Shown piece after piece: positions 1 to 52,057 of a stretch of 64,000 nt of DNA. Position numbers and translations under genes: made by a program. The stretch's first letter is position 1. Every line of letters starts with the position of its first letter. This DNA comes from Pegea sp. RAD2-039 (Eukaryota > Chordata > Thaliacea > Salpida > Salpidae), in contig JAQGEQ010000376.1 of the NCBI GenBank assembly GCA_034620365.1, positions 112,001 to 176,000 of the forward strand. The letters are read 5' to 3'. Below the pieces are notes generated by a model. It saw only the letters and a list, made by a program, of their open reading frames with translations. It did no database searches and had not been told where the DNA came from.

Positions 1-548
1 GAATTCCATACTTAGTAAGCTGTTAATAATATTTATATTTGCTAAGTAAATAAATAAGTTTTAAATAATTATTCAATGCTAATAAGTTTAAATAACTTTT
101 AAAGGACACTAAACAGTAATTTGGCTATTTTCGAATTTTATTTAATATATAATTATTATTTAGATGTAATATAAAACAGGTAGTAAACGTATAATATGGA
201 AAAATATTAGAAAAAAAAATTAGAACTTTTTTTCAAACTTTTATAAAACTCAAAAGACACATATTATTGTAAACAGAGCTTTTCAGCAATTTAACAAAGT
301 TATAAATAAGTTTATTGTAATAAGACCATCAGGACATCGAATTTCTTACACAAAAGAAGATAGGCAAAATAAGTTAAAATATAAAACAAAGCTTTTAAAA
401 ACACTCATTGTAAAAGTACTTACTAAACTTTTATTGATTATAAAAAAAATATCTTCAACTTTTAAAGTTTGTCCATGTAGCACATGAGTATTTGTTTACC
501 TAAGAAATTGAACGAAAATGGCTATTTTCAAATTATATTTTAAAACTT

Positions 549-567
549 AAGCACTTAAAAAGTGCTT
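549..567. other. 8-bp perfect hairpin in leader
   Basis: aagcactt-aaa-aagtgctt, followed by a T run. The stem is kept in type I leaders even where the loop changes (ttg in unit 7) and is weakened in type II leaders. Terminator-like in shape, but in this eukaryotic setting no role can be assigned. Confidence 0.3.
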
Positions 568-783
568 TTTAGCTGATTTCAATACCTTTTAACCACCTAA
601 ATAGTATTTCTAAATAATTTTATTTTAAATTTGAGATACATTAGGGCTGAAAAATTTTTATAAATCAAAAGCTTCCACTATAATATTGAAAATCAGTTTG
701 AAGTTATTGCAAAAGTCTATATGAAAACATAACAATAATTTAAATAAAAATTTTTTGTCCAGCAATCAAATGATTATGGTTTA

Positions 784-1005
784 CTAAATAATAAATTGTG
801 AATTCAATTTAAGCTGTTGCAACCACGATGGAAAAATGTAGTAGAAGCAGGACAACAAAACTAAGAGTAGAAGATGTCCACAAACAGAAATGGTACACTT
901 TCTGCTTTTATATTGGCTCTTCCCTGCAGCAACGTAGTTCTCGATAGAACCCTGCTGGATTTCCATGTTTGAAACATTTACACCAAAGGCGCAGGCGGAA
1001 TACAT
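784..1005 (-). other. Minus-strand ORF with hydrophobic stretch (type I leaders)
   Basis: ATG-started 73-codon minus-strand frame (MYSACAFGVNVSNMEIQQG..., then a hydrophobic HLLLLVLLSCFYYIF run) in units 1, 2 (8029-8250), 4 (26830-27051) and, shortened, 7 (50324-50536). It is broken in unit 5 and absent from type II leaders. A second frame over the same bases is also long. It could be an exon of the same lost gene as the 'TDWKF' block. The hydrophobic run would be a single membrane segment if translated. Confidence 0.25.
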
Positions 1006-1262
1006 TTTTTTATGATTGAAATTAAAGTGTCTGGGTTTGTAACCAGTCCCCTGGCATCAATGATCTTCACGCTGGAAAGCACAGTCAACTTGGTGTCATC
1101 CTTTATAAAAGAAGAAAATAATTTTAGTTGATGGAAACTTGTTATCTTGTTTGCGTCAAACTTCCAGTCTGTTAAGTTCTGGAGCGTCTTCAAGACGTGT
1201 TCACGTTCGGTGTCTTTATGCAGAAGACAGTTTGAAGGTGATACAAGTCTTTCTTGCTGTTT
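978..1262 (-). other. Minus-strand exon-like block 'TDWKF', unit 1
   Basis: A 94-codon minus-strand frame with no stop, containing HKDTEREHVLKTLQNLTDWK, then KITSFHQLKLFSSFIKDD, then IIDARGLVTNPDTL, and ending after IPPAPLV. The usual in-frame start would be TTG, so it would have to be an internal exon. The plus strand is also open here (1139-1399, no ATG). A relic of a protein-coding exon captured in the repeat is my preferred reading; the family is not recognised. Confidence 0.35.
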
Positions 1263-2489
1263 TTACCCAGTTTCTCGGTACTTACTGCTGCTGGTGTGTC
1301 AATGAGTCAGACAGGACACCTTTCTTTCAAAAGCTCTTAGAAGATAAAATCTCGTTTGAAGATTTTGTTGTTAAAATAAAATTAAAAATATTTAAATAGA
1401 ATTTTCTGTGAAACTTTAGTTTGAACAAAATCTTCTCTCTTATGGATTCATCAGGTTATAAATTAGGCAAGTCATAGTTTTTAATTTATATGAATATAAT
1501 TATCGAATATTTTAAAATGTAAATAGCAATATCTAGTTGTAAACGTCATGCAAATTACTACAGCGAAATGGTTTGCATAGTTTTATTTAAAGTAAACTTG
1601 AGACTAAAAAGAGTACATAGTATTATTTTAAAAGCTACTTTTCTATATTTAGTTTCTGTAAACATATTTAAATCCATTAAAGAAATTAAAAGACCTAAAC
1701 TTCAGTAAACCGTTTTGATGCACTATCTACTAAAACCAAACAAACAATCAAAATTATGCCAAGTTAGTAATTATGTAGAAGAAATTTTAGGTTTTAAATT
1801 TTTTTACAGCAAACAAAGAATTAAATATTTTTCAACAAAATTATTTAATTAAACTTGAAAAGAAATAGAAAATGAGAAAATAACGAAAGCTTTATCAATT
1901 GTCATATACACATATGTACAAAAATTGTGGTCAATTTAGGTCAATAAATTGAGACTTCTAAATTAAATATTATTCTAAAACTGGAATTTAATATAAAATT
2001 ATGATTTCAAAGCTAGTTAGAAGAACCAAAATTATTTGAATCAAAAATATATTTATCAAAAAAATAAAACTAAAATACTTTTAAAAGTCATATGTTATGG
2101 TGTGATTCGCCTCAAAAATTTAAATGTTTTCATAAAAGTTGCAAAGCCATTTTCAAGTGTTTTCTAGCAAAACGTAATTTTAAATTCTACTAAGTTAACT
2201 CTAAAACTCTTTTGTAGAAGTTTTTTAGAAAATTGCTGATTTTAAGAAGGTTTATTAAATTGTAACAACATTAGACTGCAAATTTGCTTCTGAAACATTT
2301 CTTATCTATAAATAAATTTATTAAAGTTAAAGTTTACGCAAAAATGAGTTTGGCTTGTAAAGCTTTCAAGTTTACAACTATTTAGCTACAGCGGTTTATC
2401 TCCCTTTATTGATTAATTAGTTAACTAAGCAAAACATAACTAATATTACCAGGAAGATGTAACTAAGATGCAGTTGATTATATAAACAT

Positions 2490-2635
2490 GTTAAAAAATG
2501 CTACTTAATATTGAAAATATTCTTAGAACTATTGGAGAACAATTCAGGAATCTTAATAAGTTTATGCTTTTTGTTAAAACTCAAGAATTATCTTATTTTC
2601 ACTTACCTTTAAAAAATGTTTCCCAAATGTTTTGA
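2490..2635 (+). pseudogene. Broken 69-codon-type ORF, unit 1
   Basis: A 5-bp loss (one ttttg of two in the ttttgttttg stretch) after VSQMF brings in an immediate TGA. Confidence 0.3.
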
Positions 2636-3643
2636 TCTTTTTTCTAAATTTGAAATCAAAAATACATTTTTAAATGTAAATCTAACAAGCTAGTAACAAT
2701 AGAGCATTTCAGTTGCACTAAATAAAATAATATTTGTTCTAATATTTACATTTTTATCTAGTGGAAAGAATAATTATCAATTAATATTTAAACATTATAA
2801 CGTGGACAAATATTTTGATTGAACACTCTTTTTAGTATTGTGATACTAAAGTAAAAACCTAATTTTACAAAAATCTCCATTCTTAAAATCATGATTAAAT
2901 GAATAGAGAAAGGAATTTTTACTAAAGTATTTTCTACAGTTTATAAATTGTAATATTTTAAATATTTCTTTGTAGTCTGAAACTCAAAGAAGCAATTAAA
3001 TTTTGTAAAGTAGTATGTGTTGTGCTTAATGATAATTATATATCTTTTTTGATGTTTAATATATCTTAAAATTAGTAAATTGTAACTTTTATGTAGGAAC
3101 GTAAGTTAACAATCAGAAATAGTAAAAAAATTTAATTATAGATAATTTATATGTATAAGTTTAATACTTATCTTAGTCGAAGAATTAATACAAAATGAAA
3201 GATTGTTGTGATAAGATTAGAGGGAAAAACTAAATAAACAGAAGATTTCTTTTTTAATAATTTTTTATGTAATTTTAAAGCTAAGAAGTTACAGTATCTT
3301 GTACTTCAGTTGTATGTTTAAAGTAACTGTAAGCTAATGTTTTAATCAAGTTGGTTTTTCCTGTAATTAATTATTAACTAGGTATAATTTTTTTGTAAAC
3401 TCTTCTCCAAGTTGAGCAAAATTTCTTTACCACTTTTTTCAAAAAGAATTTATGGTGCTTAATTTAAATTGGTTAACACTAATATTTAAAATAAAATATG
3501 CTCTATATTTATCAAGACTTTTCACTTCATGAATAAAAAAATTGGCATTAATGTTTTGAAAGTAAAATTAAATCATTACTTTACATTTCAGTTACTTTTT
3601 GTTAAGTTTTGTGAAATTTTGAGCCTTGAAAACGTCTATTAAG

Positions 3644-4455
3644 ATGAGACCTAACGTAAACTTTGAGGTATAAGTGAGTTTTAACTGTTACTCATTCAAC
3701 ATTAAATAATTGATTAAAATGCTTAAAATTATTTTTTTTAGTCGAGATTTAAAGGTTCTTTGTCGTTTTATAATTTAATAATTATCAAATTATTGTTTTT
3801 TAATTTTCTATAAACTTATTTTTCATTTTACTTTCATTGTATGCCTACATTTGATTTCTAAGACTAGCACGTTTTAATACCGATTTTAAATTTATATTTT
3901 TCTTTATAGAACAGTGACCAACTTACTGATGAGGAACTCAATTTAGTTGTTAAAATTCTTGAATTTGCAGCAAAGGACTACAGTAACATGGATTTTATGG
4001 TAAAACTTACAAACCATAAAGCTATTTATAAGCTTATTATGAAAAAATATGTTTAATTAATAATTAGAATGTAAAACAAGTTTTTTTCTCCGGACTTTTA
4101 AATTTTGCCATGTTTGCAGGAATTGCGCGACGTAACTGAGGAAATGATGAATCTTCTGTTTAGATTCGAGGAAATTGGAACAAAAAATGCATTTGAAATA
4201 TTGATGAAGCAACTGGTAATTACTTCTTTTTTAACAGAAAAAACATCTGACATTGTTTGATATATATTTTTTAGTCGTGATGCTTTTTATTTACCAGGTT
4301 TGTCTAAATCTTTATTTAATTTAAATGACCTATAAAACGAACTTAAATATCATTTTTTAAATTTAATGTTTAGTTAATGCCGTTAAACAAAACAGATATT
4401 TATTTAAACTTGAAAAACTTTTTAAATATTTTAGGAGTCTAATCTTCCTGAATAA
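3644..4455 (+). CDS. Small four-exon helical protein, paralogue A (unit 1)
   Basis: Unrecognised gene. Coding exons 3644-3667, 3910-3999, 4120-4215 and 4435-4455 join in phase 0 to give 76 residues ending in stop TAA. All introns are GT-AG (244, 242 or so, 120 and 219 bp class). The start ATG (context aagATGaga) is the first in frame after an in-frame TGA that is kept in every unit. Protein: N-terminus MRPNVNFE, then predicted amphipathic helices at about residues 13-31, 39-54 and 60-70. It has no Cys, no signal peptide and no membrane segment, so it is probably intracellular unless an upstream exon adds a leader. The C-terminal half (IG at 57-58, AFEIL at 62-66) vaguely recalls death-fold domains; this is only a hypothesis. 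An upstream 5' UTR exon is possible: a gtaagt donor at 3101 and an acceptor ending at 3591. AATAAA lies at 4524. No function can be assigned. Confidence 0.75.
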
Positions 4456-5982
4456 GAAGACTTCATCTCATAAGGTTAACTTATTATAATTTTTATTAGC
4501 TTATTTATTCAATTTTTCCTACCAATAAAAGTATTTTTTATTTGTTATAAATTTATTCTATAAATATAATTTTTCTATTAAAAGTTGAAAGAATCTCATG
4601 ATCATAAAAATCTTTGAAATATAACAAACTTATATTATTATACAAAAAAAGGCAAGTAAATTAAAGTTTCATTTTGGTTTATAACTTATTATAAATTATC
4701 ATTTTAAAGATAAGCTAAAGGAATTTTGCTTTAAATTGACAAAATCATATCCATTAACTAAATTAATTTCTACAACTAAATGAAATTTTATTTATTAGAA
4801 ACATCATTCAACATATGGAACTGGTTCTGAGGATATTTCTTCCACATTTCTTGATGATATCTTCAGACTTTTGTTTTGTTGAGCTTGTTGTTTCCAAATC
4901 AATATATACAAATGATGGAGAAATTTCTTTATGTTTATTATCACTGAGTTATAATTTAAAAATTTAGAGAGTTCAGATTTTGATCAAATGAATTGATTGA
5001 CATCAAAGTTTTTTTAGTTTGTTTGTTAAAAATAGTAATTAAACGAGCAACTTTAATTATTCTAAAAGAAGTTATAAAACATGTGTCAACTCCAATACAA
5101 TTACAGTACTAGATATAAAGAAATTGCAGAGGTGTAGTCGAACAAATCAAGAAAAATAATAAATTAGTTTATTTCAAAAATCTTTTTAACAAGTAATACA
5201 ATCAGATTAGAAACATGAAAAGAAAGTTGTCAACAAGAAAATAATTTCATCAGCAGCCTTGATGCTATTAAACAGAGTCTTGTATTGAGTTTTGTTATTC
5301 AGCTAATTTCGTAGTTTCACTGCAAGTTTCCAACAAAACCGAAGCAGCCAAAACTCGTCATCAATGTCTTTAGCCAGATTAAATAATTTAAAGAGAAAAA
5401 AAAACTTAAAATGTGAAATAGTATCGAAACGACTACAAAAAAAAAATGATTTAAACTTTTAAGTGTTTAATGTAAAAAGATGTAGAAGTATAAGTATAAA
5501 AGTGATTGTAGCAGAAGAGGTGAATTTTCTAATATTAAATGACATCATTAAGCACAAAAGACGCTGTAAAGATAACTGGAGTAAAAGAAAACAACAAAAT
5601 TTCATTTTGAAAGCAAAACACTCATCAGAAATTATTTTTTGTTCGAATTTAAATTTTTCAAAATTGATCTTGGTTTGCTGCGCTTTAGTTGGCTGATGAA
5701 ATCCTCTATGAAATCAAAGTTCTTTCAAAAAATGATGAAACTTGTCATTGCATCTTTCACCTTATAGATGTTTTCTTGTATTGCTAAAAAAATAAAAGGA
5801 TTTTGGTTTTTTGCTTTATAATTGGCAACTAGTCAAAAAATTGGTTTATTTAAGGAAATGATTAAAATATTTCTTAACTACTTACTTAGTTAGATTGTCA
5901 CAAAGTTTTATTCTCTTGATTGAAAGTTGTTTCCATCTTTATTAAGCATGAAGGGAGCCGTAGATTTACTTTTGAAATCATG

Positions 5983-6295
5983 TGACGTCATTGATACGCT
6001 AAAATGGCGTTGGATGACGTCAGTATTATTCAAATATACTTTAACTGAATATACTTACTTATGCTTCGCTGGTTAGCATTCAGCATTTTAATTATGAATC
6101 TTTTACCATGATGTAATAAAAGTGCAGTTTCATTTTGTCATGCTTATCTCATGATTGCTGATGACGTCATCTTTGAATATACAAGAAGTTGAGCACAAAT
6201 CTTTCAGTTTCACAGAAATAATTTACAATTACGGCTACAACATCCATAAGCATTTTTTTTCAGTTTTGACTTTAGTTCAATCAATGGTGACGTCA
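5983..6295. promoter_or_regulatory. Cluster of four CRE (TGACGTCA) palindromes, unit 1
   Basis: Perfect TGACGTCA at 5983, 6015, 6162 and 6288. This octamer is the classic CREB/ATF (bZIP) site. Four copies in 313 bp of A+T-rich DNA is far beyond chance, and CpG-containing sites are otherwise rare here. The start-to-start spacings of 32, 147 and 126 bp approximate 3, 14 and 12 helical turns. The cluster lies 1.5 kb downstream of the small gene and 4.6 kb upstream of the next copy, so it could be a shared enhancer or the promoter of an unannotated transcript. The moderately conserved segment tatgcttcgctggttagcat lies between sites 2 and 3. Confidence 0.7.
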
Positions 6296-6583
6296 CACAG
6301 CAACGACACTCGTACTTGTGTAAGAACTCTGTTCAGAGAAAATAATAATAATCATCTTATTATGATACTAATAAGAATTATCTTATAAAGTCATGAAATT
6401 TTAGTAGAAAAGTTGGAAATAAATAAATTTATAAGGTATAAGTATATATATAAATATATATAAGGTATAAAGAACAAAAGGTTTACTTCATTTATCAGAA
6501 AAAATTTCATGTTAGAAATCTTTGTAGTAAACCTAACACCTCCTTAATATTATAATTTTATTAGTGGTCAAAATTTAATAAAA

Positions 6584-6748
6584 GGCAAACTGGTTGCAAC
6601 ACCTAGCTCCAAGGTACTTTTTACAAGGAAGTACTGGGTTCAACCCAGGTTGAGACATATTTATAAAACTCCTGACAAAAACCTCAAAGAAACTCAGGAG
6701 AATGCTTGTTAGTGAGATGCGTTCTCTTTAGGCACGCTCTTTCGCATG
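6584..6748 (+). mobile_element. tRNA-derived SINE-like segment, unit 1
   Basis: A box-A-like tagctccaagg (6604-6614) and a box-B-like gggttcaaccc (6636-6646) stand about 32 bp apart, as in tRNA-headed pol III elements. They are followed by a non-tRNA body ending near cacgctctttcgcatg and an A+T-rich tail. It forms part of the type I tail rather than an independent insertion in this array. Confidence 0.5.
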
Positions 6749-8222
6749 TATAAATATAAAATATAAATATACAAAAGATGTAAACAAGCTTATAATTATT
6801 TAACAAATCAAAAACATTACTTTATTTATTTCTAAGTATTTCATGATAGAAATCTTTGTAGTATACATAACAACTCCATAATATTATAATTTTCTTAGTG
6901 GTCAAAAATTTAGAAAAATAACATATGCAAATTTAAAAAAATAATAAAAATAAAGACATATGTGGTGAATGACCTTTAATTTAATAACATTCTAAATTTT
7001 ACATGAATACAAGAGTGTAGTTTCATACATTGGTATATATTATAGTCTTACCTCTTACATTTACAAAAATAGAAATAAATTTTGAAATATTAGCAACTAT
7101 TATATTAGGTTGAACAGATTATTTATACATCAAACCGGGCCAGTTTGCTGGTATAGTTTTATTTAAAAATTAAACAACATTCATCATAGTTCAAGCTATC
7201 AAATAGAATTTTAACTTTTCAAATATTTTTATAGACAATACTTTAGAATTCCATACTTAGTAAGCTGTTAATAATATTTATATTTGCTAAGTAAATAAAT
7301 AAGTTTTTAATAATTATTCAATCCTTATAAGTTTAAATAACTTTTCAAGGACACTAAACAGTAATTTGGCTATTTTCGAATTTTATTTAATATATAATTA
7401 TTATTTAGATGTAATATAAAACAGGTAGTAAACGTATAATATGGAAAAATATTAGAAAAAAAAATTAGAACTTTTTTTCAAACTTTTATAAAACTCAAAA
7501 GACACATATTATTGTAAACAGAGCTTTTCAGCAATTTAACAAAGTTATAAATAAGTTTATTGTAATAAGACCATCAGGACATCGAATTTCTTACACAAAA
7601 GAAGATAGGCAAAATAAGTTAAAATATAAAACAAAGCTTTTAAAAACACTCATTGTAAAAGTACTTACTAAACTTTTATTGATTATAAAAAAAATATCTT
7701 CAACTTTTAAAGTTTGTCCATGTAGCACATGAGTATTTGTTTACCTAAGAAATTGAACGAAAATGGCTATTTTCAAATTATATTTTAAAACTTAAGCACT
7801 TAAAAAGTGCTTTTTAGCTGATTTCAATACCTTTTAACCACCTAAATAGTATTTCTAAATAATTTTATTTTAAATTTGAGATACATTAGGGCTGAAAAAT
7901 TTTTATAAATCAAAAGCTTCCACTATAATATTGAAAATCAGTTTGAAGTTATTGCAAAAGTCTATATGAAAACATAACAATAATTTAAATAAAAAATTTT
8001 TGTCCAGCAATCAAATGATTATGGTTTACTAGATAATAAATTGTGAATTCCATTTAAGCTGTTGCAACCACGATGGAAAAATGTAGTAGAAGCAGGACAA
8101 CAAAACTAAGAGTAGAAGATGTCCACAAACAGAAATGGTACACTTTCTGCTTTTATATTGGCTCTTCCCTGCAGCAACGTAGTTCTCGATAGAACCCTGC
8201 TGGATTTCCATGTTTGAAACAT

Positions 8223-8507
8223 TTACACCAAAGGCACAGGCGGAATACATTTTTTTATGATTGAAATTAAAGTGTCTGGGTTTGTAACCAGTCCCCTGGC
8301 ATCAACGATCTTCACGCTGGAAAGCACAGTCAACTTGGTGTCATCCTTTATAAAAGAAGAAAATAATTTCAGTTGATGGAAACTTGTTATCTTGTTTGCG
8401 TCAAACTTCCAGTCTGTTAAGTTCTGGAGCGTCTTCAAGACGTGTTCACGTTCGGTGTCTTTATGCAGAAGACAGTTTGAAGGTGATACAAGTCTTTCTT
8501 GCTGTTT
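8223..8507 (-). other. Exon-like block 'TDWKF', unit 2
   Basis: Open over the same 94 codons as unit 1, with two replacements (I to V before DARG; A to V near the end). Confidence 0.33.
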
Positions 8508-9773
8508 TTACCCAGTTTCTCGGTACTTACTGCTGCTGGTGTGTCAATGAGTCAGACAGGACACCTTTCTTTCAAAAGCTCTTAGAAGATAAAATCTGTT
8601 TTGAAGATTTTGTTGTTAAAATAAAATTAAAAATATTTAAATAGAATTTTCTGTGAAACTTTAGTTTGAACAAATTCTTCTCTCTTATGGATTCATCAGG
8701 TTATAAATTAGGCAAGTCATAGTTTTTAATTTATATGAATATAATTATCGAATTTTAATATTTTTAAATGTAAATAGCAATATCTAGTTGTAAACGTTAT
8801 GCAAATTACTACAGCGAAATGGTTTGCGTGGTTTTATTTAAAGTAAACTTGAGACTAAAAAGAGTACATAGTATTATTTTAAAAGCTACTTTTCTATATT
8901 TAGTTTCTGTAAACATATTTAAATCCATTAAAGAAATTAAAAGACCTAAACTTCAGTAAACCGTTTTGATGCACTATCTACTAAAATCAAACAAACAATC
9001 AAAATTATGCCAAGTTAGTAATTATGTAGAAGAAATTTTAGGTTTTTAATTTTTTTACAGCAAACAAAAAATTAAATATTTTTCAACAAAATCATTTAAT
9101 TAAACTTGAAAAGTAATAAAAACTGAGAAAATAAGGAAAGCTTTATCAATTGTCATTTACACAGTTGTACAAAAATTGTGGTCAATTTAGGTCAATAAAT
9201 TGAGACTTCTAAATTAAATATTATTCTAAAACTGGAATTTAATATAAAATTATGATTTCAAAGTTAGTTAGAAGAACAAAAATTATCTGAATCAAAAATA
9301 TATTTATCAAAAAAATAAAACTAAAATACTTTTAAAAGTCATATGTTATGGTGTGATTTGCCACAAAAATTTTAATGTTTTTATAAAAGTTGCAAAGCCA
9401 TATTCAAGTGTAAAATTTTAATTTAACATTTTCTTATAAAAGTAATTTTCTAGCAAAAGGTAATTTTAAATTATACTAAGTTAACTCTAAAACTCTTTTG
9501 TAGAAGTTTTTTAGAAAATTGCTGATTTTAAGAAGGTTTATTAAATTGTAACAACATTAGACTGCAAATTTGCTTCTGAAACATTTCTAATCTATAAATA
9601 AATTTATTAAAGTTAAAATTTACGCAAAAATGAATTTGGCTTGTAAAGCTTTCTAGTTTTCAACTATTTAGCTACAGCGGTTTTTCTCCCTTTGTTGATT
9701 AATTAGTTAACTAAGCAAAACATAACTAATATTACCAGGAAGATGTAACTAAGATGCAGTTGATTATATAAAC

Positions 9774-9983
9774 ATGTTAAAAATGTTACTTGATAATGAA
9801 AATATTCTTAGAATTCTTGGAGAACAATTCAGGAATCTTAATAAGTTTTTGCTTTTTGTTAAAACTCAAGAATTATCTTATTTTCACTTACCTTTAAAAA
9901 ATGTTTCCCAAATGTTTTGTTTTGATCTTTTTTCTAAAATTGAAATCAAAAATACATTTTTAAATGTAAATCTAAGAAGCTAG
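9774..9983 (+). CDS. 69-codon ORF upstream of the small gene, unit 2
   Basis: ATG-started frame whose first half is amphipathic (MLLDNENILRILGEQF, then FLLFVKTQELSYF). Intact versions in units 2, 4, 5, 7 and 8; broken in units 1, 3 and 6. An in-phase gtaaat donor lies after NTFLN near its end, so it could be a 5' exon. However, the minus strand also offers a clean 42-nt exon here (9892-9933, attttag acceptor, aag/GTAAGTG donor). The presence of broken copies in units whose small gene is intact argues against an essential role. No family recognised. Confidence 0.3.
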   Translation: MLKMLLDNENILRILGEQFRNLNKFLLFVKTQELSYFHLPLKNVSQMFCFDLFSKIEIKNTFLNVNLRS

Positions 9984-10935
9984 TAACAATAGTGCATTTC
10001 AGTTGCAGTAAATAAAATTAAATTTGTTCTAATATTTACATTTTTATCTAGTGGAAAGAATAATTATCAATTAATATCTAAACATTATAACGTGGACAAA
10101 TATTTTGATTGAACACTCTTTTTAGTATTATGATACTAAAGTAAAAATCTAATTTTACAAAAATCTCCATTCTTAAAATCATGATTAAATGAATGGAGAA
10201 AGGAATTTTTACTAAAGTATTTTCTACAGTTTATAAATTGTAATATTTTAAATATTTCTTTGTAGTCTGAAACTCAAAGATATAATTAAATTTTGTAAAG
10301 TAGTATGTGTTGTGCTTAATGATAATTATATATCTTTTTTGATGTTTAATATATCTGAAAATTAGTAAATTGTAACTTTTACGTAGGAACGTAAGTAAAC
10401 AATCAGAAATAGTAAAATAATTTAATTATAGATAATTTATATGTATAAGTTTAATACTTATCTTAGTCGAAGAAATAATACAAAATGAAAGATTGTTGTG
10501 ATAGGATTAGAGGGAAAAACTAAATAAACAGAAGATTTCTTTTTTAATAATTTTTTATGTAATTTTAAAGCTAAGAAGTTACAGTATCTTGTACTTCAGT
10601 TGTATGTTTAAAGTAACTGTAAGCTAATGTTTTAATCAAGTTGGTTTTTCTTGTAATTAATTAAATAACTAGGTATAATTTTTGTGTAAAATCTTCTCCA
10701 AGTTGAGCAAAATTTCTTTACCACTTTTTTCAAAAAGAATTTATGGTTAATAATTTAAATTGGTTAACACTAATATTTAAAATAAAATATGCTCTATATT
10801 TATCAAGACTTTTCACTTCATGAATAAAAAAATTGGCATTAATGTTTTGAAAGTAAAATTAAATCATCACTTTACATTTCAGTGACTTTTTGTTAACAAT
10901 TTTTGAATTTTTGAGCCTTGAAAACGTCTATTAAG

Positions 10936-11745
10936 ATGAGACCTAACGTAAACTTTGAGGTATTTGTGATTTTTAACTATTACTCATTCAACATTAAATA
11001 ATTGATTAAAATGCTTACAATTATTGTTTTTAGTCGAGATTTAAAGGTTCTTTGTCGTTTTATAATTTAATAATTATCAAATTATTGTTTTTTAATTTTC
11101 TATAAACATATTTTTCTTTTTACTTTCATTGTATGCCCAAATTTGGTTTCTAAGATTAGCATGTGTTAATACTGATTTTCAAGTTATATTATTCTGTATA
11201 GAACAATGACCAACTTACTGAGGAAGAACTTGATGAACTGGTCAGAGTTCTCGAATATACAGCAGAGGACTATAGCAACATGGATATCATGGTAACACTT
11301 ACAAAACAAGGCTACTTTAAAACCATTTTTAAAAAAATGTTTTTTCATTAATAGTTGGAATGTAAAACAAGTTTTCTTACACTTATAAGTTTTTCCTATG
11401 TTTGCAGGAATTGAACAACATAGCTGTACAAATCATGATAGTGTTGCTTAAGTTGTTGGAAATTGGAAGAAGAGATCTATTTGAAATATTGATGCAGCGA
11501 CTAGTAATTACTTCTTATTTTAACAGAAAAAACAGCAGACATTCTTTTATTTATATTTTTTAGTTGTGATATTTTCTATTTAACAGTTTTATCTAAATCT
11601 TTTTTTAATTGAAATGACATATAAAACGAACTTAAATTTCATTTTCTAAATTTATTGTTTAGTTAACTTAATTTAACAAAACAGATATTTACTTAAGCTT
11701 GAAAAACCATTTTTAATTTTTCAGAATTTCATTCTTGCTGACTAG
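10936..11745 (+). CDS. Small four-exon helical protein, paralogue B (unit 2)
   Basis: Exons 10936-10959, 11202-11291, 11408-11503 and 11725-11745, all phase 0, 76 residues, stop TAG. Exon 1 is identical to paralogue A, but exons 2-4 differ at 35 of 68 residues without any indel. Conserved features are DQLT (11-14), the DYSNMD core (31-36), EIG (56-58) and FEILM (63-67). The third helix reads KLLEIGRRDLFEILM, more like a death-fold C-terminal helix pair than A does. The last exon encodes NFILAD in place of ESNLPE. Intron 1 is about 92% identical to unit 1, so replacement change is concentrated in and around the exons. Unrecognised family. Confidence 0.75.
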
Positions 11746-16464: not shown

Positions 16465-16719
16465 TCAGTTTGAAGATATTGCAAAAGTCTGTATAAAAAT
16501 CAAACAAGAACTCAAAAAAAAAACTATTTTTATTACTTTTATTAAAAATAAAGTATCTGGGTTTGTAATCAGTCCCCTGGCATCAATGATTTCCACGCTG
16601 GATAGTACAGTCAGCTTGGTGTCATCCTTTATAAAAGAAGAAAATAATTTCAGTTGATGGAAACTTGTTATCTTGTTTGCGTCAAACTTCCAGTCTGTTA
16701 AGTTCTGGAGCGTCTTCAA
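16465..16719 (-). pseudogene. Exon-like block 'TDWKF', unit 3 (type II end)
   Basis: The WKFDANKITSFHQLKLF core and DARGLITNPDTL are kept. The frame then enters a different A+T-rich end (hydrophobic, SSCLIFIQTFAISSN), because type II leaders lack the next block. An upstream TGA appears where units 1 and 2 are open. Confidence 0.3.
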
Positions 16720-18054
16720 GACGTGTTCACGTTCCGTGTCTTTATGCAGAAGACAGTTATAAGTTCATACAAGTCTTTCTTGCTCTTTTTACCCAGTTTC
16801 TCGGTACTTACTGCTGCTGGTGTGTCAATGAGTCAGACAGGACACCTTTCTTTCAAAAACTCTTAGAAGATAAAATCTCGTTTGAAGATATTGTTGTTAA
16901 AATAAAATTAAAAATTTTTAAATAAAATTTTCTGTGAAACTTTAGTTTGAACAAATTCTTCTCTCTTATGGATTCATCAGGTTATAAATTAGGCAAATCA
17001 TAGTTTTTAATTTATATGAATATAATTACCGAATTTTAATTTTTTTAAATGTAAATAGCAATATCTAGTTGTAAACGTTATGCAAATTACTACAGCGAAA
17101 TGGTTTGCATAGTTTTTTTTAAAGTAAACTTGAGACTACAAACTGAGCTTAGTATTATTTTAAAGGCTACTTTACTAAATTTAGTTTCTGAAAACATATT
17201 TAAATCGTCTAAAGAAATTAAAAGACCAATACTTCAGTAAACCGTTTTGATGCACTATCTCCTAAAATCAAACAAACAATCAAAATTATGCCAAGTTAGT
17301 AATTATGTAGAAGAAATTTTAGGTTTTTAATTTTTTTACAGCAAAAAAAAAATTAAATATTTTTCAACAAAATTATTTAATTAAACTTGAAAAGAAATAG
17401 AAAATGAGAATATAACGAAAGCTTTATCAATTGTCATATACACAGTTGTACAAAAATTGTGGTCAATTTAGGTCAATAAATTGAGACTTCTAAATTAAAT
17501 ATTATTCTAAAACTGGAATTTAATATAAAATTATGATTTCAAGGTTAGCTAGAAGAACAAAAGTTATTTGAATCAAAAAAATATTTATCAAAAAATAAAA
17601 CTAAAATACTTTTAAAAGTCATATGTTCTGGTGTGATTCACCTCAAAAATTTAAATGTTTTTATAAAAGTTGCAAAGCCATATTCAAGTGTAAAATTTTA
17701 ATCTAACATTTACTTATAGAAGTAATTTTCAAGCAAAACATAATTTTAAATTCTACTAAGTTAACTCTAAATCTCTTTTGTAGAAGTTTTTTAGAAAATT
17801 GCTGATTTTAAGAAGGTTTATTAAATTGTAACAACGTTAGACTGCAAATTTGCTTCTGAAACATTTCTTATCTATTAATAAATTTTTTACAGTTAAAATC
17901 TACGCAAAAATGAGTTTGGCTTGTAAAGCTTTCTAGTTTTCAACTATTTAGCTACAGCGGTTTATCTCCCTTTATTGATTAATTAGTTAACTAAGCAAAA
18001 CATAACTAATATTACCAGGAAGATGTAACTAAGATGCAGTTCATTATATAAACA

Positions 18055-19219: not shown

Positions 19220-20032
19220 ATGAGACCTAACGTAAACTTTGAGGTATTGGTGATTTTTTACTGTTACTCATTCAACATTAAATAATTGATTAAAATGCTT
19301 AGAATTATTGTTTTTTAGTCGAGATTTAAAGGTTCTTTGTCGTTTTATAATTTAATAATTATCAAATTATCATTTTTAATTTTCTATAAACTTATTTTTC
19401 ATTTAAATTTCATTGTATGCCTAAATTTGATTTCTAAGACTAGCACGTGTTAATACCGATTTTAAAGTTATATTATTCTTTATAGAACAGTGACCAACTT
19501 ACTGATGAGGAACTCAATTTAGTTGTTAAAATTCTTGAATTTGCAGCAAAGGACTACAGTAACATGGATTTTATGGTAAAACTTACAAACCATAAAGCTA
19601 TTTAAAAGCTTATTATGAAAAAATATGTTTAATTAATAATTAGAATGTAAAACAAGTTTTTTTCTCCGGACTTGTAAATTTTGCCCATGTTTGCAGGAAT
19701 TGCGCGACGTAACTGAGGAAATGATGAATCTTCTGTTTAGATTCGAGGAAATTGGAACAAGAAATGCATTTGAAATATTAATGAAGCAACTGGTAATTAC
19801 TTCTTTTTAAAAAGAATAAACATCTGACATTGTTTGATATATATTTTTTAGTCGTGATACTTTTTATTTACCAGTTTTGTCTAAATCTTTATTTAATTTA
19901 AATGACATATAAAACGAACTTAAATATCATTTTCTAAATTTAATGTTTAGCTAATGCCGTTAAACAAAACAGATATTTATTTAAACTTGAAAAACCATAT
20001 AAATTTTTTAGGAGTCTAATCTTCCTGAATAA
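19220..20032 (+). CDS. Small helical protein, paralogue A (unit 3)
   Basis: Exons 19220-19243, 19486-19575, 19697-19792 and 20012-20032, stop TAA. Differs from the unit 1 product only by K60R, plus one silent Leu change (ttg to tta) shared with units 4 and 7. All splice sites are intact. Confidence 0.74.
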
Positions 20033-27023: not shown

Positions 27024-27239
27024 TTACACCAAAGGCGCAGGCGGAATACAATTTTTTATGATTGAAATTAAAGTGTCTGGGTTTGTAACCAGTCCCCTGG
27101 CATCAATGATCTTCACGCTGGATACCACAGTCAGCTTGGTGTCATCCTTTATAAAAGAAGAAAATAATTTCAGTTGATGGAAACTTGTTATCTTGTTTGC
27201 GTCAAACTTCCAGTCTGTTAAGTTCTGGAGCGTCTTCAA
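27024..27239 (-). pseudogene. Exon-like block 'TDWKF', unit 4
   Basis: The core is intact, but an in-frame TGA (in cttgtatgatc on the minus strand) closes the upstream part that is open in units 1, 2 and 5. Confidence 0.3.
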
Positions 27240-28586
27240 GACGTGTTCACGTTCAGTGTTTTTATGCAGAAGACAGTTATAAGATCATACAAGTCTTTCT
27301 TGCTCTTTTTACCCAGTTTCTCGGTACTTACTGCTGCTGGTGTGTCAATGAGTCAGACAGGACACCTTTCTTTCAAAAACTCTTAGAAGATAAAATCTCG
27401 TTTGAAGATTTTGTTGTTAAAATAAAATTAAAAATTTTTAAATAAAATTTTCTGTGATACTTTAGTTTAAACAAATTCTTCTCTATTAGGGATTCATCAG
27501 GTTATAAATTAGGCAAATCATAGTTTTTAATTTATATGAATATAATTATGGAATTTTAATATTTTTAAATGTAAATAGCAATATCTAGTTGTAAAAGTTA
27601 TGCAAATTACTACAGCAAAATGGTTTGCATAGTTTTATTTAAAGTAAACTTGAGACTAAAAAGTGAGCTTAGTATTATTTTAAAAGCTACTTTTCTAAAA
27701 TTAGTTTCTGAAAACATATTTAAATCGTCTAAAGAAAGTAAAAGTCCTAAGCTTCAGTAAACCGTTTTGATGCACTATCTCCTAAAATCAAACAAACAAT
27801 CAAAATTATGCCAAGTTAGTAATTATGTAGAAGAAATTTTAGGTTTTTAATTTTTTTACAGCAAACAAAAAATTAAATATTTTTCAACAAAATCATTTAA
27901 TTAAACTTGAAAAGAAATAGAAAATGAGAAAATAACGAAAGCTTTATCAATTGTCATATACACAGTTGTACAAAAATTGTGGTTAATTTAGGTCAATAAA
28001 TTGAGACTTCTAAATTAAAAATTATTCTAAAACTGGAATTTAATATAAAATTATGATTTCAAAGTTAGTTAGAAGAACAAAAATTATTTGAATCAAAAAA
28101 AAATATTTATCACAAAAATAAAACTAAAATACTTTTAAAAGTCAAATCTTATGGTGTGATTCGCCACAAAAATTTAAATGTTTTTATAAAAGTTGCAAAG
28201 CCATATTCAATTGTAAAATTTTAACTTAACATTTTCTTCAAGAAGTAATTTTCAAGCAAAAGGTAATTTTAAATTCTACTAAGTTAACTCTAAAACTCTT
28301 TTGTAGAAGTTTTTTAGAAAATTGCTGATTTTAAGAAGGTTTATTAAATTGTAACAACTTTAGACTGCAAATTTGCTTCTGAAACATTTCTTATCTATAA
28401 ATAAATTTATTAAAGTTAAAATTTACGGAAAAATGAATTTGGCTTGTAAGGCTTTCTAGTTTTCAACTATTTAGCTACAGCGGTTTTTCTCCCTTTATTG
28501 ATTAATTAGTTAACTAAGCAAAACATAACTAATATTACCAGGAAGATGTAACTAAGATGCAGTTGATTATATAAACATGTTAAAAA

Positions 28587-29739: not shown

Positions 29740-30550
29740 ATGAGACCTAACGTAAACTTTGAGGTATTGGTTATTTTTCACTGTTACTCATTCAACATTA
29801 AAAAATAGATTAAAATGCTTAAAATTATTGTTTTTTAGTCGAGATTTAAAGGTTCTTTGTCGTTTTATAATTTAATAATTATCAAATTATCATTTTTAAT
29901 TTTCTATAAACTTATTTTTCATTTAAATTTCATTGTATGCCTACATTTGATTTCTAAGACTAGCACGTGTTAATACCGATTTTAAAGTTACATTATTCTT
30001 TATAGAACAGTGACCAACTTACTGATGAGGAACTCAATTTAGTTGTTAAAATTCTTGAATTTGCAGCAAAGGACTACAGTAACATGGATTTTATGGTAAA
30101 ACTTACAAACCATAAAGCTATTTAAAAGCTTATTATGAAAAAATATGTTTAATTAATAATTAGAATGTAAAACAAGTTTTTTTCTCCGGACTTGTAAAGT
30201 TTGCCCATGTTTGCAGGAATTGCGCGACGTAACTGAGGAAATGATGAATCTTCTGTTTAGATTCGAGGAAATTGGAACAAAAAATTCATTTGAAATATTA
30301 ATGAAGCAACTGGTAATTACTTCTTTTTTAACAGAAAAAACATCTGACATTGTTTGATATATATTTTTTAGTCGTGATACTTTTTATTTACCGGCTTTGT
30401 CTAAATCTTTTTTAATTAAATGACATAGAAGACAAACTTAAATATCATTTTCTAAATTTAATGTTTAGCTAATGCCGTTAAACAAAACAGATATTTATTT
30501 AAACTTGAAAAACCATATAAATTTTTTAGGATTCTAATCTTCCTGAATAA
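29740..30550 (+). CDS. Small helical protein, paralogue A (unit 4)
   Basis: Exons 29740-29763, 30006-30095, 30217-30312 and 30530-30550, stop TAA. Replacements relative to unit 1 are A62S and E71D, the latter in the last exon (gattct for gagtct). The minus-strand 65-codon frame over 30153-30350 is a shadow of exon 3 and its introns. Confidence 0.74.
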
Positions 30551-34314: not shown

Positions 34315-34530
34315 TTACACCAAAGGCGCAGGCGGAATACATTTTTTTATGATTGAAATTAGAGTGTCTGGGTTTGTAATCAGTCCCCTGGCATCAATGA
34401 TCTTCATGCTGGAAAGCACAGTCAACTTGGTGTCATCCTTTATAAAAGATAAAAATAATTTCAGTTGATAGAAACTTGTTATCTTGTTTGCGTCAAACTT
34501 CCAGTCTGTTAAGTTCTGGAGCGTCTTCAA
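34315..34530 (-). other. Exon-like block 'TDWKF', unit 5
   Basis: Core with replacements (FYQLKLFLSF, SSMKIIDARGLI). Open on the same frame as unit 1. Confidence 0.3.
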
Positions 34531-35866
34531 GACGTGTTCACGTTCGGTGTCTTTATGCAGAAGACAGTTTGAAGGTGATACAAGTCTTTCTTGCTGTTTT
34601 TACCCAGTTTCTCGGTACTTACTGCTGCTGGTGTGTCAATGAGTCAGACAGGACACCTTTCTTTCAAAAACTCTTAGAAGATAAAATCTGTTTTGAAGAT
34701 TTTGTTGTTAAAATAAAATTAAAAATATTTAAATAGAATTTTCTGTGAAACTTTAGTTTGAACAAATTCTTCTCTCTTATGGATTCATCAGGTTATAAAT
34801 TAGGCAAGTCATAATTTTTAATTTATATGAATATAATTATCGAATTTTAATATTTTTAAATGTAAATAGCAATATCTAGTTGTAAACGTTATGCAAATTA
34901 CTACAGCGAAATGGTTTGCGTGGTTTTATTTAAAGTAAACTTGAGACTAAAAAGAGTACATAGTATTATTTTAAAAGCTACTTTTCTATATTTAGTTTCT
35001 GTAAACATATTTAAATCCATTAAAGAAATTAAAAGACCTAAACTTCAGTAAACCGTTTTGATGCACTATCTACTAAAATCAAACAAACAATCAAAATTAT
35101 GCCAAGTTAGTAATTATGTAGAAGAAATTTTAGGTTTTTAATTTTTTTACAGCAAACAAAAAATTAAATCTTTTTCAACAAAATCATTTAATTAAACTTG
35201 AAAAGTAATAAAAACTGAGAAAATAAGGAAAGCTTTATCAATTGTCATTTACACAGTTGTACAAAAATTGTGGTCAATTTAGGTCAATAAATTGAGACTT
35301 CTAAATTAAATATTATTCTAAAACTGGAATTTAATATAAAATTATGATTTCAAAGTTAGTTAGAAGAACAAAAATTATTTGAATCAAAAAACATATTTAT
35401 CAAAAAAACAAAACTAAAATACTTTTAAAAGTCATGTGTTCTGGTGTGATTCGCCTCAAAAATTTAAATGTTTTCATAAAAGTTGCAAAGCCATTTTCAA
35501 GTGAAAATTTTAATCTAACATTTTCTTAAAGAAGTAATTTTCTAGCAAAAGGTAATTTTAAATTCTACTAAGTTAACTCTAAAACTCTTTTGTAGAAATT
35601 TTTTTAGAAAATTGCTGATTTTAAGAAGGTTTATTAAATTGTAACAATATTAGACTGCGAATTTGCTTCTGAAACATTTCTTATCTATAAATAAATTTAT
35701 TAAAGTTAAAATTTACCCAAAAATGAATTTGGCTTGTAAGGTTTTCTAGTTTTCAACTATTTAGCTACAGCGGTTTTTCTCCCTTTATTGATTAATTAGT
35801 TAACTTAGCAAAACATAACTAATATTACCGGGAAGATGTAACTAAGATGCAGTTGATTATATAAAC

Positions 35867-37028: not shown

Positions 37029-37837
37029 ATGAGACCTAACGTAAACTTTGAGGTATAAGTGATTTTTAACTATTACTCATTGAACAATAAATAATTGATT
37101 AAAATGCTTACAATTATTGTTTTCAGTCGAGATTTAAAGGTTTTTAGTCGTTTGGTAATTTAATATTAATAAAATTATTGTTTTTAATTTTCTATAAACT
37201 TATTTTTCATTTTACTTTCATTGTATGCCCAAATTTGGTTTCTAAGATTAGCATGTGTTAATACTGATTTTCAAGTTTTATTATTCTGTATAGAACAATG
37301 ACCGACTTACTGAGGAAGAACTTGATGAACTGGTCAGAATTCTCGAATATACAGCAGAGGACTATAGCAACATGGATATCATGGTAACACTTACAAAACA
37401 AGGCTACTTTAAAACCATTTTTAAAAAAATGTTTTTTCATTAATAGTTGGAATGTAAAACAAGTTTTCTTACACTTATAAGTTTTTCCTATGTTTGCAGG
37501 AATTGAACAACATAGCTGTACAAATCATGATATTGTTGCTTAAGTTGTTGGAAATTGGAAGAAGAGATCTATTTGAAATATTGATGCAGCGACTAGTAAT
37601 TACTTCTTATTTTAACAGAAAAAACAGCAGACATTCTTTTATTTATATTTTTTAGTTGTGAAATTTTCTAATAAACAGTTTTATCTAAATCTTTTTTTAA
37701 ATGAAATGACATATAAAACGAACTTAAATTTCATTTTCTAAAATTATTGTTTAGTTAACTTAATTTAACAAAACAGATATTTACTTAAGCTTGAAAAACC
37801 ATTTTTAATTTTTCAGAATTTCATTCTTGCTGACTAG
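37029..37837 (+). CDS. Small helical protein, paralogue B (unit 5)
   Basis: Exons 37029-37052, 37294-37383, 37500-37595 and 37817-37837, stop TAG. Against the other B copy (unit 2) it differs by Q12R, V24I and V50L, with no silent change. The 60-codon minus-strand frame over exon 2 (37258-37440) is a shadow. Confidence 0.74.
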
Positions 37838-41087: not shown

Positions 41088-43009
41088 CTGTAACAAATAA
41101 GGCTCATAAATCCCCTTACAAAATTTCTTCATTCAAACTCTTTTGTCAGAATTTCTGAGATGCCAAAAACAAATTATTTTTGGCTGTAATATTCACAAAA
41201 GTAGTAGAAGTTAAAGAGGACTCGATTTCACCCAAAATCAAAGCTAATGAGAAGAAAATGTTCAGTTTTGAAATTTCTGTTTGCTATCTGTAAATTGAAA
41301 TAACTAATTTTAAAGGATATTCTGAGAAATGACTCTAAGACTTTTAGATATATTGGAAACTTAGAGAAAATATTAAAAATTAGAAAGTTAGAAACAGAAA
41401 AGTTATTAGCAAATTAATCTTTTTTTTTAAAAACATATCTAAACATTTTACACATTTTTGAGTCTAAACAATTTTTAAAATGTACAATTTTAGTTAAATT
41501 ATTTGCAACTTGTTCATAAAATTTATAATTTTAATTAAAACTTAAAAGGTTAGTAGAATTTCATTTATATAAATAATAATAAAAATATATTACATATGAA
41601 TAATCTTTTAAAGTCATTAAGTTTAAGTAAAAAAAGTTTGATATAAGTAAATGTATAAGGTATAAATATATATAAAAATAAGCATAAGGAACACAATTGT
41701 TTATAAATTTACTTAAATCAAGAAATTTACTTTTTTTATCAGAAAATATTTTATAATAGAAATCTTTGTAGCAAACCTGACCCCTCCTTAATATTATATT
41801 TTTCTTAGTGGTGAAAATTTGATAAAAATAACAAAAAAAAATAATATAAAAAGTAAAAATCAAGATATATTTGGTGAAAAACCTCCAATGTAACAACCTT
41901 ATAAATTTGACATAAATACAAGCGCATAGTTTCATTCTATAGTATAAATTAAATTTTTACCTTCTTAAATTTAAATAAATAGATTAATTTTCGAAGTATT
42001 AACAACATTTTTTTTGGTTCAACAGATTATAATTATTTCTAACAAGTTCAGTCAGCTCTTTTAACTTTATATAAAAACTTAACAACATTCATTATAGTTC
42101 AAGCCATCAAATAAAATTTAAATTTTTTAAATATATTTTATAGACAATATACTACGAACCCATACTTGGTAAGCTGTTAATAATATATATGTTTGCTAAG
42201 TACATCATAAGTCTAAATAAAATTATTCAATCTTTTTGAATTTGAATAAATTTTAATTGACACTAAACAATAATATAAACAATTAAAAGAAAAATTTTAA
42301 TTTGATTATTTTTAATTTTAATTTAATATATAATTATTTAGATGCTATAACACAAGAAACACAGTAAAGGTATAATATGGAAAAAATAATACGAATTTTT
42401 TTCAAACTTTAATAAACAATAAAACAAAATATAATATTTTAAATAGAGTTTTTCAGCACTTAAACAAAATTATAAATTAGTTTATTGTAATAAGACGGTT
42501 AGGTCATCAAATTTCTTAGCAAAAGAAGATAGGCAAAAGAAGTTAAAACATAAAACAAAGCTTTTAATTACATTCATTGAAAAACTACTTACTAAATTTT
42601 TGTTTATTATTAAAAAAATCCCTTAAACTTTTAAAGTTTGTCTATGTAGCACATGAGTTTTTGTTTACTTAAAAAATTGAACGAGAATGGCTATTTTCAA
42701 ATTATATTTTAAAACTTAAACATTCGAAAGTGCTTTTTAGCTTATTTTAATAACTTTTTATCACTTAAATAGTATTTCTGAATAATATTATTTAATATTT
42801 GAGATCATTTAGGGCAGAACAATTTTTATAAACCAAAAGCTTCAACTTTAATGTAGAAAATCAGTTTGAAGATATTGCAAAAGTCTGTATAAAAATCAAA
42901 CAAGAATTAAAAAAAAAACTATTTTTATTACTTTGATTAAAAATAAAGTATCTGGGTTTGTAATCAGTCCCCTGGCATCAATGATTTCCACGCTGGATAG
43001 TACAATCAG

Positions 43010-43243
43010 CTAGGTGTCATCCTTTATAAAAGAAGAAAATAATTTCAGGTGATGGAAACTTGTTATCTTGTTTGCGTCAAACTTCCAGTCTGTTACTTTA
43101 TGGAGCTTCTTGAAGATCATATCCAACATGGCCACGATGCTTACATCGACAATAATCTTGTCAACATGTCCAACAATTCCTTCTGTTAAAACTGGGCAAA
43201 GAACTGACACAAATACTCTTGCCTCAAAGTCAGTGAATGACGT
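43010..43243 (-). pseudogene. Long exon version ahead of 'TDWKF', unit 6, with nonsense codon
   Basis: Behind a possible acceptor (ctgaagt..catag read on the minus strand, exon from 43243) the frame runs TSFTDFEARVFVSVLCPVL, then GIVGHVDKIIVDVSIVAMLD, then KKLHKVTDWKF. It ends at a TAG inside DDT*LIV, where the other units have Lys. The KKLHKVTDW part aligns with KTLQNLTDW of the short version, so the two are alternative ends of one ancestral segment. Confidence 0.4.
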
Positions 43244-43257
43244 CTATGTCTGAAGTA

Positions 43258-43400
43258 TGGTTTTGACACGCGCACTGCGCACTCTGGGTTCGATTCTGGG
43301 TAGATAAAATACATCAGGACCCAGGCTTCTTGTAGGTGAGGCATTACTAGACAGCTGGATAAGTTTTCTGATCCTCTTAACTGCCTTCATCCTACTTTAG
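43258..43400 (+). mobile_element. tRNA-like B-box piece unique to unit 6 (and unit 8)
   Basis: gggttcgattc (43286-43296) follows cgcgcactgcgcactct, as in a tRNA anticodon arm and T arm. Unit 8 keeps the same piece with gggttcaattc at 60006. No clear box A. It could be a second, degraded SINE family inserted next to the long exon. Confidence 0.3.
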
Positions 43401-45910: not shown

Positions 45911-46723
45911 ATGAGACCTAACGTAAACTTTCAGGTATTTGTGATTTTTAACTGTTACTCATTCAACATTAAAAAATTGATTAAAATGCTTAAAATTATT
46001 GTTTTTTAGTCAAGATTTAAAGGTTCTTTGTCGTTTTATAATTTAATAATTATCAAATTATCATTTTTAATTTTCTATAAACTTATTTTTCATTTAAATT
46101 TCATTGTATGCCTACATTTGAATTCTAAGACTAGCACGTGTTAATACCGATTATAAAGTTATATTATTCTTTATAGAACAGTGACCAACTTACTGATGAG
46201 GAACTCAATTTAGTTGTTAAAATTCTTGAATTTGCAGCAAAGGACTACAGTAACATGGATTTTATGGTAAAACTTACAAACCATAAAGCTATTTAAAAGC
46301 TTATTATGAAAAAATATGTTTAATTAATAATTAGAATGTAAAACAAGTTTTTTTCTCCGGACTTGTAAATTTTGTCCATGTTTGCAGGAATTGCGCGACG
46401 TAACTGAGGAAATGATGAATCTTCTGTTTAGATTCGAGGAAATTGGAACAAAAAATGCATTTGATATATTGATGAAGCAACTGGTAATTACTTCTTTTTT
46501 AACAGAAAAAACATCTGACATTGTTTGATATATATTTTTTAGTCGTGATACTTTTTATTTATCGGCTTTGTCTAAATCTTTTTTTTAATTAAATGACATA
46601 GAAGACGAACTTAAATATCATTTTTTAAATTTAATGTTTAGCTAATGCCGTTAAACAAAACAGATATTTATTTAAACCTGAAAAACTTTTTAAATATTTT
46701 AGGAGTCTAATCTTCCTGAATAA
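45911..46723 (+). CDS. Small helical protein, paralogue A (unit 6)
   Basis: Exons 45911-45934, 46177-46266, 46388-46483 and 46703-46723, stop TAA. Exon 1 ends CAG instead of GAG (E8Q), which leaves the donor GT intact. Exon 3 has E64D. Otherwise identical to unit 1. Confidence 0.74.
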
Positions 46724-50508: not shown

Positions 50509-50724
50509 TTACACCAAAGGCGCAGGCGGAATACATTTTTTTATGATTGAAATTAAAGTGTCTGGGTTTGTAACCAGTCCCCTGGCATCAATGATCTTCA
50601 CGCTGGATAGCACAATCAGCTTGGTGTCATCCTTTATAAAAGAAGAAAATAATCTCAGTTGATGGAAACTTGTTATCTTGTTTGCGTCAAACTTCCAGTC
50701 TGTTAAGTTCTGGAGCGTCTTCAA
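50509..50724 (-). pseudogene. Exon-like block 'TDWKF', unit 7
   Basis: Same short version as unit 1, with H-Q-L-R-L-F and a Leu-Ile-Val change before LSSVKII. Confidence 0.3.
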
Positions 50725-52057
50725 GACGTGTTCACGTTCCGTGTCTTTATGGAGAAGACAGTTAGAAGATTAAACAAGTCTTTCTTGCTGTTTTTACCCA
50801 GTTTCTTGGTACTTACTGCTGCTGGTGTGTCAATGAGTCATATAGGACACCCCTCTTTCAGAAACTCTTAGAAGATAAAAACTCTTTTGAAGATTTTGTT
50901 GTTAAAATAAAATTAAAAATATTTAAATAAAATTTTCTGTGAAACTTTAGTTTGAACAAATTCTTCTCTCTTATGGATTCATCAGGTTATAAATTAGGCA
51001 AATCATAGTTTTTATTTATATGAATATAATTATCGAATTTTAATATTTTTAAATGTAAATAGCAATATCTAGTTGTAAACGTTATGCAAATTACTACAGC
51101 GAAATGGTTTGCATAGTTTTATTTAAAGTAAACTTGAGACTAAAAAGTTTGCTTAGTATTATTTTAAAGGCTACTTTTCTAAATTTAGTTTCTGAAAACA
51201 TATTTAAATCGTCTAAAGAAATTAAAAGACCTAAACTTCAGTAAACCGTTTTGATGCACTATCTCCTAAAATCAAACAAACAATCAAAATTATGCCAAGT
51301 TAGTATTTATGTAGAAGAAATTTTAGGTTTTTAATTTTTTTACAGCAAAAAAAAATAAATATTTTTCAACAAAATTATTTAATTAAACTTGAAAAGAAAT
51401 AGAAAATGAGAAAATAACGAAAGCTTTATCAATTGTCATATACACAGTTGTACAAAAATTGTGGTCAATTTAGGTCAATAAATTGAGACTTCTAAATTAA
51501 ATATTATTCTAAAACTGGAATTTAATATAAAATTATGATTTCAAAGTTAGTTAGAAGAACAAAAATTATTCGAATCAAAAAAAATATTTATCAAAAAAAC
51601 AAAACTAAAATACTTTTAAAAGTCATGTGTTCTGGTGTGATTCGCCTCAAAAATTTAAATGTTTTCATAAAAGTTGCAAAGCCATTTTCAAGTGAAAATT
51701 TTAATCTAAAATTTTCTTAAAGAAGTAATTTTCTAGCAAAAGGTAATTTTAAATTCTACTAAGTTAACTCTAAAACTCTTTTGTAGAAATTTTTTTAGAA
51801 AATTGCTGATTTTAAGAAGGTTTATTAAATTGTAACAATATTAGACTGCGAATTTGCTTCTGAAACATTTCTTATCTATAAATAAATTTATTAAAGTTAA
51901 AATTTACCCAAAAATGAATTTGGCTTGTAAGGTTTTCTAGTTTTCAACTATTTAGCTACAGCGGTTTTTCTCCCTTTATTGATTAATTAGTTAACTTAGC
52001 AAAACATAACTAATATTACCGGGAAGATGTAACTAAGATGCAGTTGATTATATAAAC

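Follow-up and report, generated by a model that had tools for sequence, protein, structure and literature searches.

Orphan gene families arranged in tandem arrays encode small proteins that lack detectable relatives, change fast and are present in several copies, and tandem duplicates can stay distinct against gene conversion. A third point of reference is provided by the micro-exon genes of schistosomes, which, in the part of the published description considered here, combine very small symmetric exons, for which that part states no size limit, with a signal peptide (PMC4350168).

The locus compared here lies in a window of 64,000 nucleotides, the whole stretch of DNA that we analyzed (G000:C282:112001-176000), in a genome of 105.7 Mb and 387 contigs. 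Across the window, where the G+C content is ~25%, a tandem unit is repeated eight times at start-to-start distances of 7.3 to 10.5 kb, and a small predicted four-exon gene occurs once per unit. The contig holds 11 copies of this gene, eight within the window and three outside it, which fall into class A (seven copies), class B (three copies) and one diverged type C. Six A and two B copies (B exons from 10936 and 37029) lie in the window; one further A and one further B copy, both intact, follow past its right edge, and C is located past its left edge. Genome-wide searches returned at least 18 matches for protein A, 15 for protein C and 11 for the 5′ region, all lying within the 11 known copies, and no paralogue was found elsewhere in the genome with the type C query at E ≤10 or with the type A query at 1e-3. 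Outside the window, the array is flanked by two pairs of inverted near-copies (contig positions 1-8086 against 222759-214663, 97%, and 85550-95894 against 228829-218486, 98%). Frames on the same contig resemble what we take, from labels assigned by eye, to be a C2H2 zinc-finger gene and an SLC6-type transporter, which points to an animal genome.

In copy 1 (class A, plus strand), exons of 24, 90, 96 and 21 nt joined in phase 0 give a spliced translation of 76 amino acids (MRPNVNFE...SNLPE). Exon 1 (3644-3667) encodes MRPNVNFE, with an in-frame stop preceding the ATG (the upstream stop was checked in four copies); exon 2 (3910-3999) contains 30 codons and a predicted amphipathic helix 1; exon 3 (4120-4215) contains 32 codons, with a putative helix 2, a turn IG and helix 3; and exon 4 (4435-4455) ends in the stop TAA. 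The other window copies, all on the plus strand, are copy 2 (class B, 10936-11745; exons 10936-10959, 11202-11291, 11408-11503 and 11725-11745), copy 3 (class A, 19220-20032; exons 19220-19243, 19486-19575, 19697-19792 and 20012-20032), copy 4 (class A, 29740-30550; exons 29740-29763, 30006-30095, 30217-30312 and 30530-30550), copy 5 (class B, 37029-37837; exons 37029-37052, 37294-37383, 37500-37595 and 37817-37837), copy 6 (class A, 45911-46723; exons 45911-45934, 46177-46266, 46388-46483 and 46703-46723), copy 7 (class A, 53221-54033; exons 53221-53244, 53487-53576, 53698-53793 and 54013-54033) and copy 8 (class A, 62000-62812; exons 62000-62023, 62266-62355, 62477-62572 and 62792-62812).

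The initial annotation had described this gene as intact in all eight copies and invisible to single-frame open reading frames, and both statements hold. Exon lengths, all six GT/AG dinucleotides, the frame and the stop are preserved in the eight window copies and also in the two further A/B copies, and the gene is absent among the 12 stop-to-stop frames of at least 75 amino acids in window positions 1-11000. The gene model is open in all 11 copies of the contig, none being broken. The description of the protein as free of cysteine and of the stop position as constant applies to A and B; type C has one cysteine and an exon 4 that extends 18 nt beyond the A/B stop, and its exon 1 measures 33 nt through a 9-nt frame-keeping insertion relative to A; the type C protein has 85 amino acids. 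Some 50 nt before the ATG, an acceptor-like TTTACATTTCAG is found at window positions 3580-3591 and at the counterparts of this site; the window copies retain it, with one base changed in copy 6, it is altered in C, and it possibly represents 5′ UTR sequence or a trans-splice acceptor.

Since class A pairs are ~95% alike, their shared intactness is weak evidence for the gene, and the strongest test available in these sequences is copy C. The same holds for the many flanking indels that had originally been set against the intact frame: within class A they amount to 4-9 gaps per 1.4 kb, and the argument draws its weight from comparing A with B and, most of all, A with C. Between A and C, exon 2 differs at 21 of 90 sites and exon 3 at 40 of 96, both without a single gap. 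Exons 2-4 (207 nt) contain no indel event, compared with 16 events in the three introns (581 nt), and at the intron rate an absence of indels from these exons would have a Poisson probability of about 0.003. A point on the other side is that A/C divergence is higher in exons 3 and 4 (42 and 48%) than in introns 1 and 3 (24 and 29%). The splice dinucleotides of A and B are all present in C as well. The frame and splice sites are thus kept across diverged copies, which supports well the proposal of one protein-coding gene per unit, and on this comparison we regard it as highly probable that the four-exon gene is a real one.

These data also bear on the idea that open frames arose here by chance in repeat DNA that is AT-rich. 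When a single pair is shuffled neutrally, exons 2 and 3 retain an open frame in 6-27% of trials, depending on the pair and direction compared, and the eight intact copies, being so alike, do not amount to eight independent tests. However, chance frames would not account for the conserved splice dinucleotides, nor for gap-free exons adjoining an intron 2 in which the alignment of A with C has 240 gapped columns. We further scanned both strands of an A1, B2, B10 and C alignment for open segments of at least 25 codons. Only exons 2 and 3 were open in all four copies, bounded by AG/GT and diverged by >20%; two other AG/GT-bounded open segments showed a divergence of 7-13%, and a stretch of 39 codons that is open opposite exon 3 lacked conserved AG/GT bounds. 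We consider chance frames a highly improbable explanation.

Two further frames of the unit deserve mention. Window positions 5463-5630 (plus strand) hold a 56-codon open frame, gap-free in A1, B2, B10 and C and 8-10% diverged, and a Pfam search with positions 5463-5693 gave no match. A minus-strand frame, SFVYIDFETT... (window positions about 4800-4955; C282:108811-108984), is open in copy C, but its matches in unit 1 are split between two frames; it represents a second, apparently decayed gene of the unit.

We then considered how the gene evolves. Protein change between A and B is no lower than neutral, with 30 amino acid changes against an expectation of 30.9, and slightly below neutral between A and C (32 against 36-37) and between B and C (28 against 33; P = 0.03-0.08 for the comparisons with C). 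No excess of third positions was found among the variable sites of the eight window copies (8, 7, 9 and 12, 10, 10), and among the seven class A copies the residue is altered in 10 of 13 variable codons. dN/dS across the eight between-type pairs ranges from 0.37 to 0.64 by NG86 and from 0.35 to 0.91 by LWL85, while YN00 gave values for two of the eight pairs only (A1-B2, 1.16; A9-B2, 0.62). The neutral level of A/B change, the altered class A codons and the absent third-position excess are what would be expected of a once-functional gene that is now drifting neutrally, its frame surviving as the copies are young.

Other observations speak against such drift. Within classes, 18 of 231 exon sites are variable, compared with 81 of 581 intron sites (P = 0.017) and with 270 of 1770 sites in introns and flanks (P = 0.002), which is about half the variation; intron 2, with 6 of 120 variable sites, is as invariant as the exons. 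The character of the protein is preserved between the types as well: the net charge encoded by exons 2 and 3 is −8, −9 and −9, where neutral change would give means between −0.2 and −1.8 (P = 0.007-0.046), and the BLOSUM62 score of the observed changes lies above the neutral one (P = 0.002-0.058), both tests comprising six directed comparisons and being conditional on an open frame. Switches between hydrophobic and polar residues are fewer than neutral in the B-C pair only (P = 0.014 and 0.005), and the other pairs display no such deficit (P about 0.10-0.13). Together with the lack of indels in exons 2-4 relative to C and of any broken copy among the 11, these results make neutral drift unlikely in our view. 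They indicate instead, as far as these rates and scores can tell, a gene that is constrained in kind, that is, in acidity and residue type, and fast in sequence. McDonald-Kreitman-like counts (fixed, 36 nonsynonymous to 15 synonymous; within class, 15 to 3; P = 0.36) provide no proof of positive selection.

The initial annotation had noted two paralogue versions, both intact, which is confirmed; it had missed that the two are separated by an island of divergence over the exons. In a 3.4-kb alignment of all 10 A/B units (about 2160-5600), 128 columns with fixed A|B differences (120 when gapped columns are left out) fall into ~1 kb over exons 2-4 (3828-4822 in copy 1 coordinates), and one falls in the remaining ~2.4 kb. 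The A and B flanks are homogenized around diverged exons. Exon 1 has no fixed difference; fixed differences account for 21, 26 and 33% of sites in exons 2, 3 and 4 and for 17.5 and 9% in introns 2 and 3, and their share is higher in exons 2-4 (51 of 207 sites) than in introns 2 and 3 (41 of 339; Fisher P = 2.3e-4). When exons 2 and 3 are compared three ways, 28 nucleotide changes are specific to A, 18 to B and 31 to C, with two sites different in all, so that the exons of A, B and C are similarly old. We infer from this pattern that conversion operates throughout the array, with the coding exons being resistant to it. Alternatively, one old conversion tract may have introduced the B exons once and thereby produced the island, a scenario allowed by intron 2, whose variation within classes is low and whose A|B divergence is near that of the exons.

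What the two forms might do can be approached through the properties of the proteins. All three types are small and acidic (76-85 residues, 9-10 kDa, pI 4.05-4.26), with net charges of −10, −10 and −12 for A, B and C. An alignment of five of the 11 proteins contains 25 invariant columns, among them L13, T14, E16-L18, V22, L25, D31, Y32, I57, G58 and E64-M67. Helices were placed by periodicity, and their positions are accordingly putative; helix 1 is amphipathic, with a hydrophobic moment of about 1.4 in A, and the predicted helix 2 carries charge in A (mean hydropathy −0.26, charge −4), whereas its counterparts in B and C are hydrophobic (1.36 and 1.03). This difference in helix 2 suggests that A and B either have different partners or pair with one another. 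The N-termini are polar (mean hydropathy of the first 18 residues −1.26, −1.41 and −0.73 in A, B and C, by hydropathy only), and as no signal peptide is evident, the proteins are probably intracellular. An upstream exon encoding a signal peptide was also considered and is not supported: type C is homologous to the 5′ region only as far as about window position 3519, 125 nt before the ATG, and in-frame stops lie upstream in all four copies examined.

These features are relevant to the suggestion that the locus encodes a secreted variable protein of the schistosome micro-exon kind, varied by the skipping of symmetric exons. In A, B and C, each of the four exons has a length divisible by three and the junctions are in phase 0, so that exon 2 or exon 3 could be skipped in frame, and the protein changes fast. 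Yet its N-terminus is not signal-like by hydropathy and the main exons measure 90 and 96 nt, and we regard this explanation as very improbable.

The explanation we favor, although we hold it to be only about evenly balanced between right and wrong, is that of a real, fast-evolving gene whose small, acidic, helical proteins exist in two specialized, partner-binding forms. Under this model, tandem amplification to 11 copies would have raised dosage, gene conversion would keep the array units alike, and selection would act against converted copies in which coding exons of A and B are mixed, so that both forms persist. The A, B and C proteins would bind partners via a helix surface, with A and B each having a different partner or pairing mutually. 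It is tempting to go one step further and to speculate that A and B must coexist, either as an obligate pair or as an antagonistic one, for instance an effector and its neutralizer, with selection separating their exons despite conversion; we judge this stronger version improbable. These assessments refer to explanations that overlap, and they are not required to add up to one.

Searches for relatives bear out the earlier statement that no family is recognized, within libraries that are poor in animals. Searches of Pfam, PDB, NCBIfam, PHROGs, viral contigs, GTDB genomes and a set of 5.8 billion proteins returned no relative, and when the unit was searched against Pfam in eight pieces, no match exceeded the cut-off. 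The candidates that did appear, namely, DUF1811, DUF3189, Ariadne, STN1, designed proteins, a Plasmodium domain and several PHROGs, were set aside as chance-level matches, the lowest E value of 0.018 belonging to a designed protein. The large protein set yielded a single relative (46% identity, E = 2e-23) even for a control gene of the same contig, suggesting that these negatives say little about animals, and the genome contig library comprised bacteria and archaea only. The locus could consequently belong to an ordinary gene family of this animal group, present in an existing predicted proteome or transcriptome and mundane in function. The control gene and the composition of the contig library leave room for it, the fact that Pfam, PDB, NCBIfam and PHROGs yielded no match with an E value under 0.018 argues against it, and we view it as a possible but rather unlikely account, which overlaps with the favored one.

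Each unit also contains, on the minus strand, one piece of a further frame (981-1199, 8226-8444, 16540-16725, 27027-27245, 34318-34536, 42935-43396, 50512-50730 and 59652-60083). The longest such frame (C282:186023-186517) spans 165 amino acids, and some copies hold stops. The unit frame is distantly related (20%; E = 3.7e-5 in the genome search, 3e-10 pairwise) to a Tenui_N nucleocapsid-like frame on another contig, and the unit piece itself has no Pfam match; it is possibly an endogenous bunyavirus-like relic. Tenui_N, the phlebovirus/tenuivirus nucleocapsid, has Pfam matches above cut-off at three loci with frames of 286, 322 and 307 amino acids (L035:1882-2850, minus strand; G000 contigs C194, C381 and C1), which are endogenous copies with long open frames, possibly retained in the animal. 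An origin of the four-exon gene itself from a viral nucleocapsid was rejected, the 85-residue type C protein matching one of the three Tenui_N frames with E = 0.24 over 16 residues. An SSU rDNA lies at L032:2257-4047. Degenerate or partial rDNA is marked by shortened matches to SSU and LSU close to one end of contig C1 (L033), and a second locus (L031, contig C125) has 5.8S and, in the expected place of the SSU, a frame that looks zinc-finger-like by eye. Searches with a rotifer spliced leader, with COX1 and with nematode SL1 each gave 0 matches, as did the control for SL1.

The locus presents a probable gene overlooked by single-frame ORF calling and a compact natural case in which coding divergence persists in a homogenized array, with ten copies, an island of ~1 kb and an outgroup copy on the margin. 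Should selection be what maintains the A/B split, its strength against gene conversion could be measured here directly from population reads. Compared with the schistosome micro-exon genes, insofar as the part of their description considered here covers them, the locus shares symmetric exons and fast evolution (PMC4350168), whereas exons of 90 and 96 nt make up 186 of its 231 nt and a signal peptide is not evident.

The likeness to orphan families in tandem arrays consists of a small, fast-changing protein in several tandem copies and the lack of relatives in animal-poor libraries, but here two coding classes are fixed apart inside an otherwise homogenized array. With tandem duplicates that stay distinct despite conversion, finally, the locus has in common a divergence limited to the gene amid homogenized flanks; it differs in that selection is a suggested cause here, next to a single old conversion tract.
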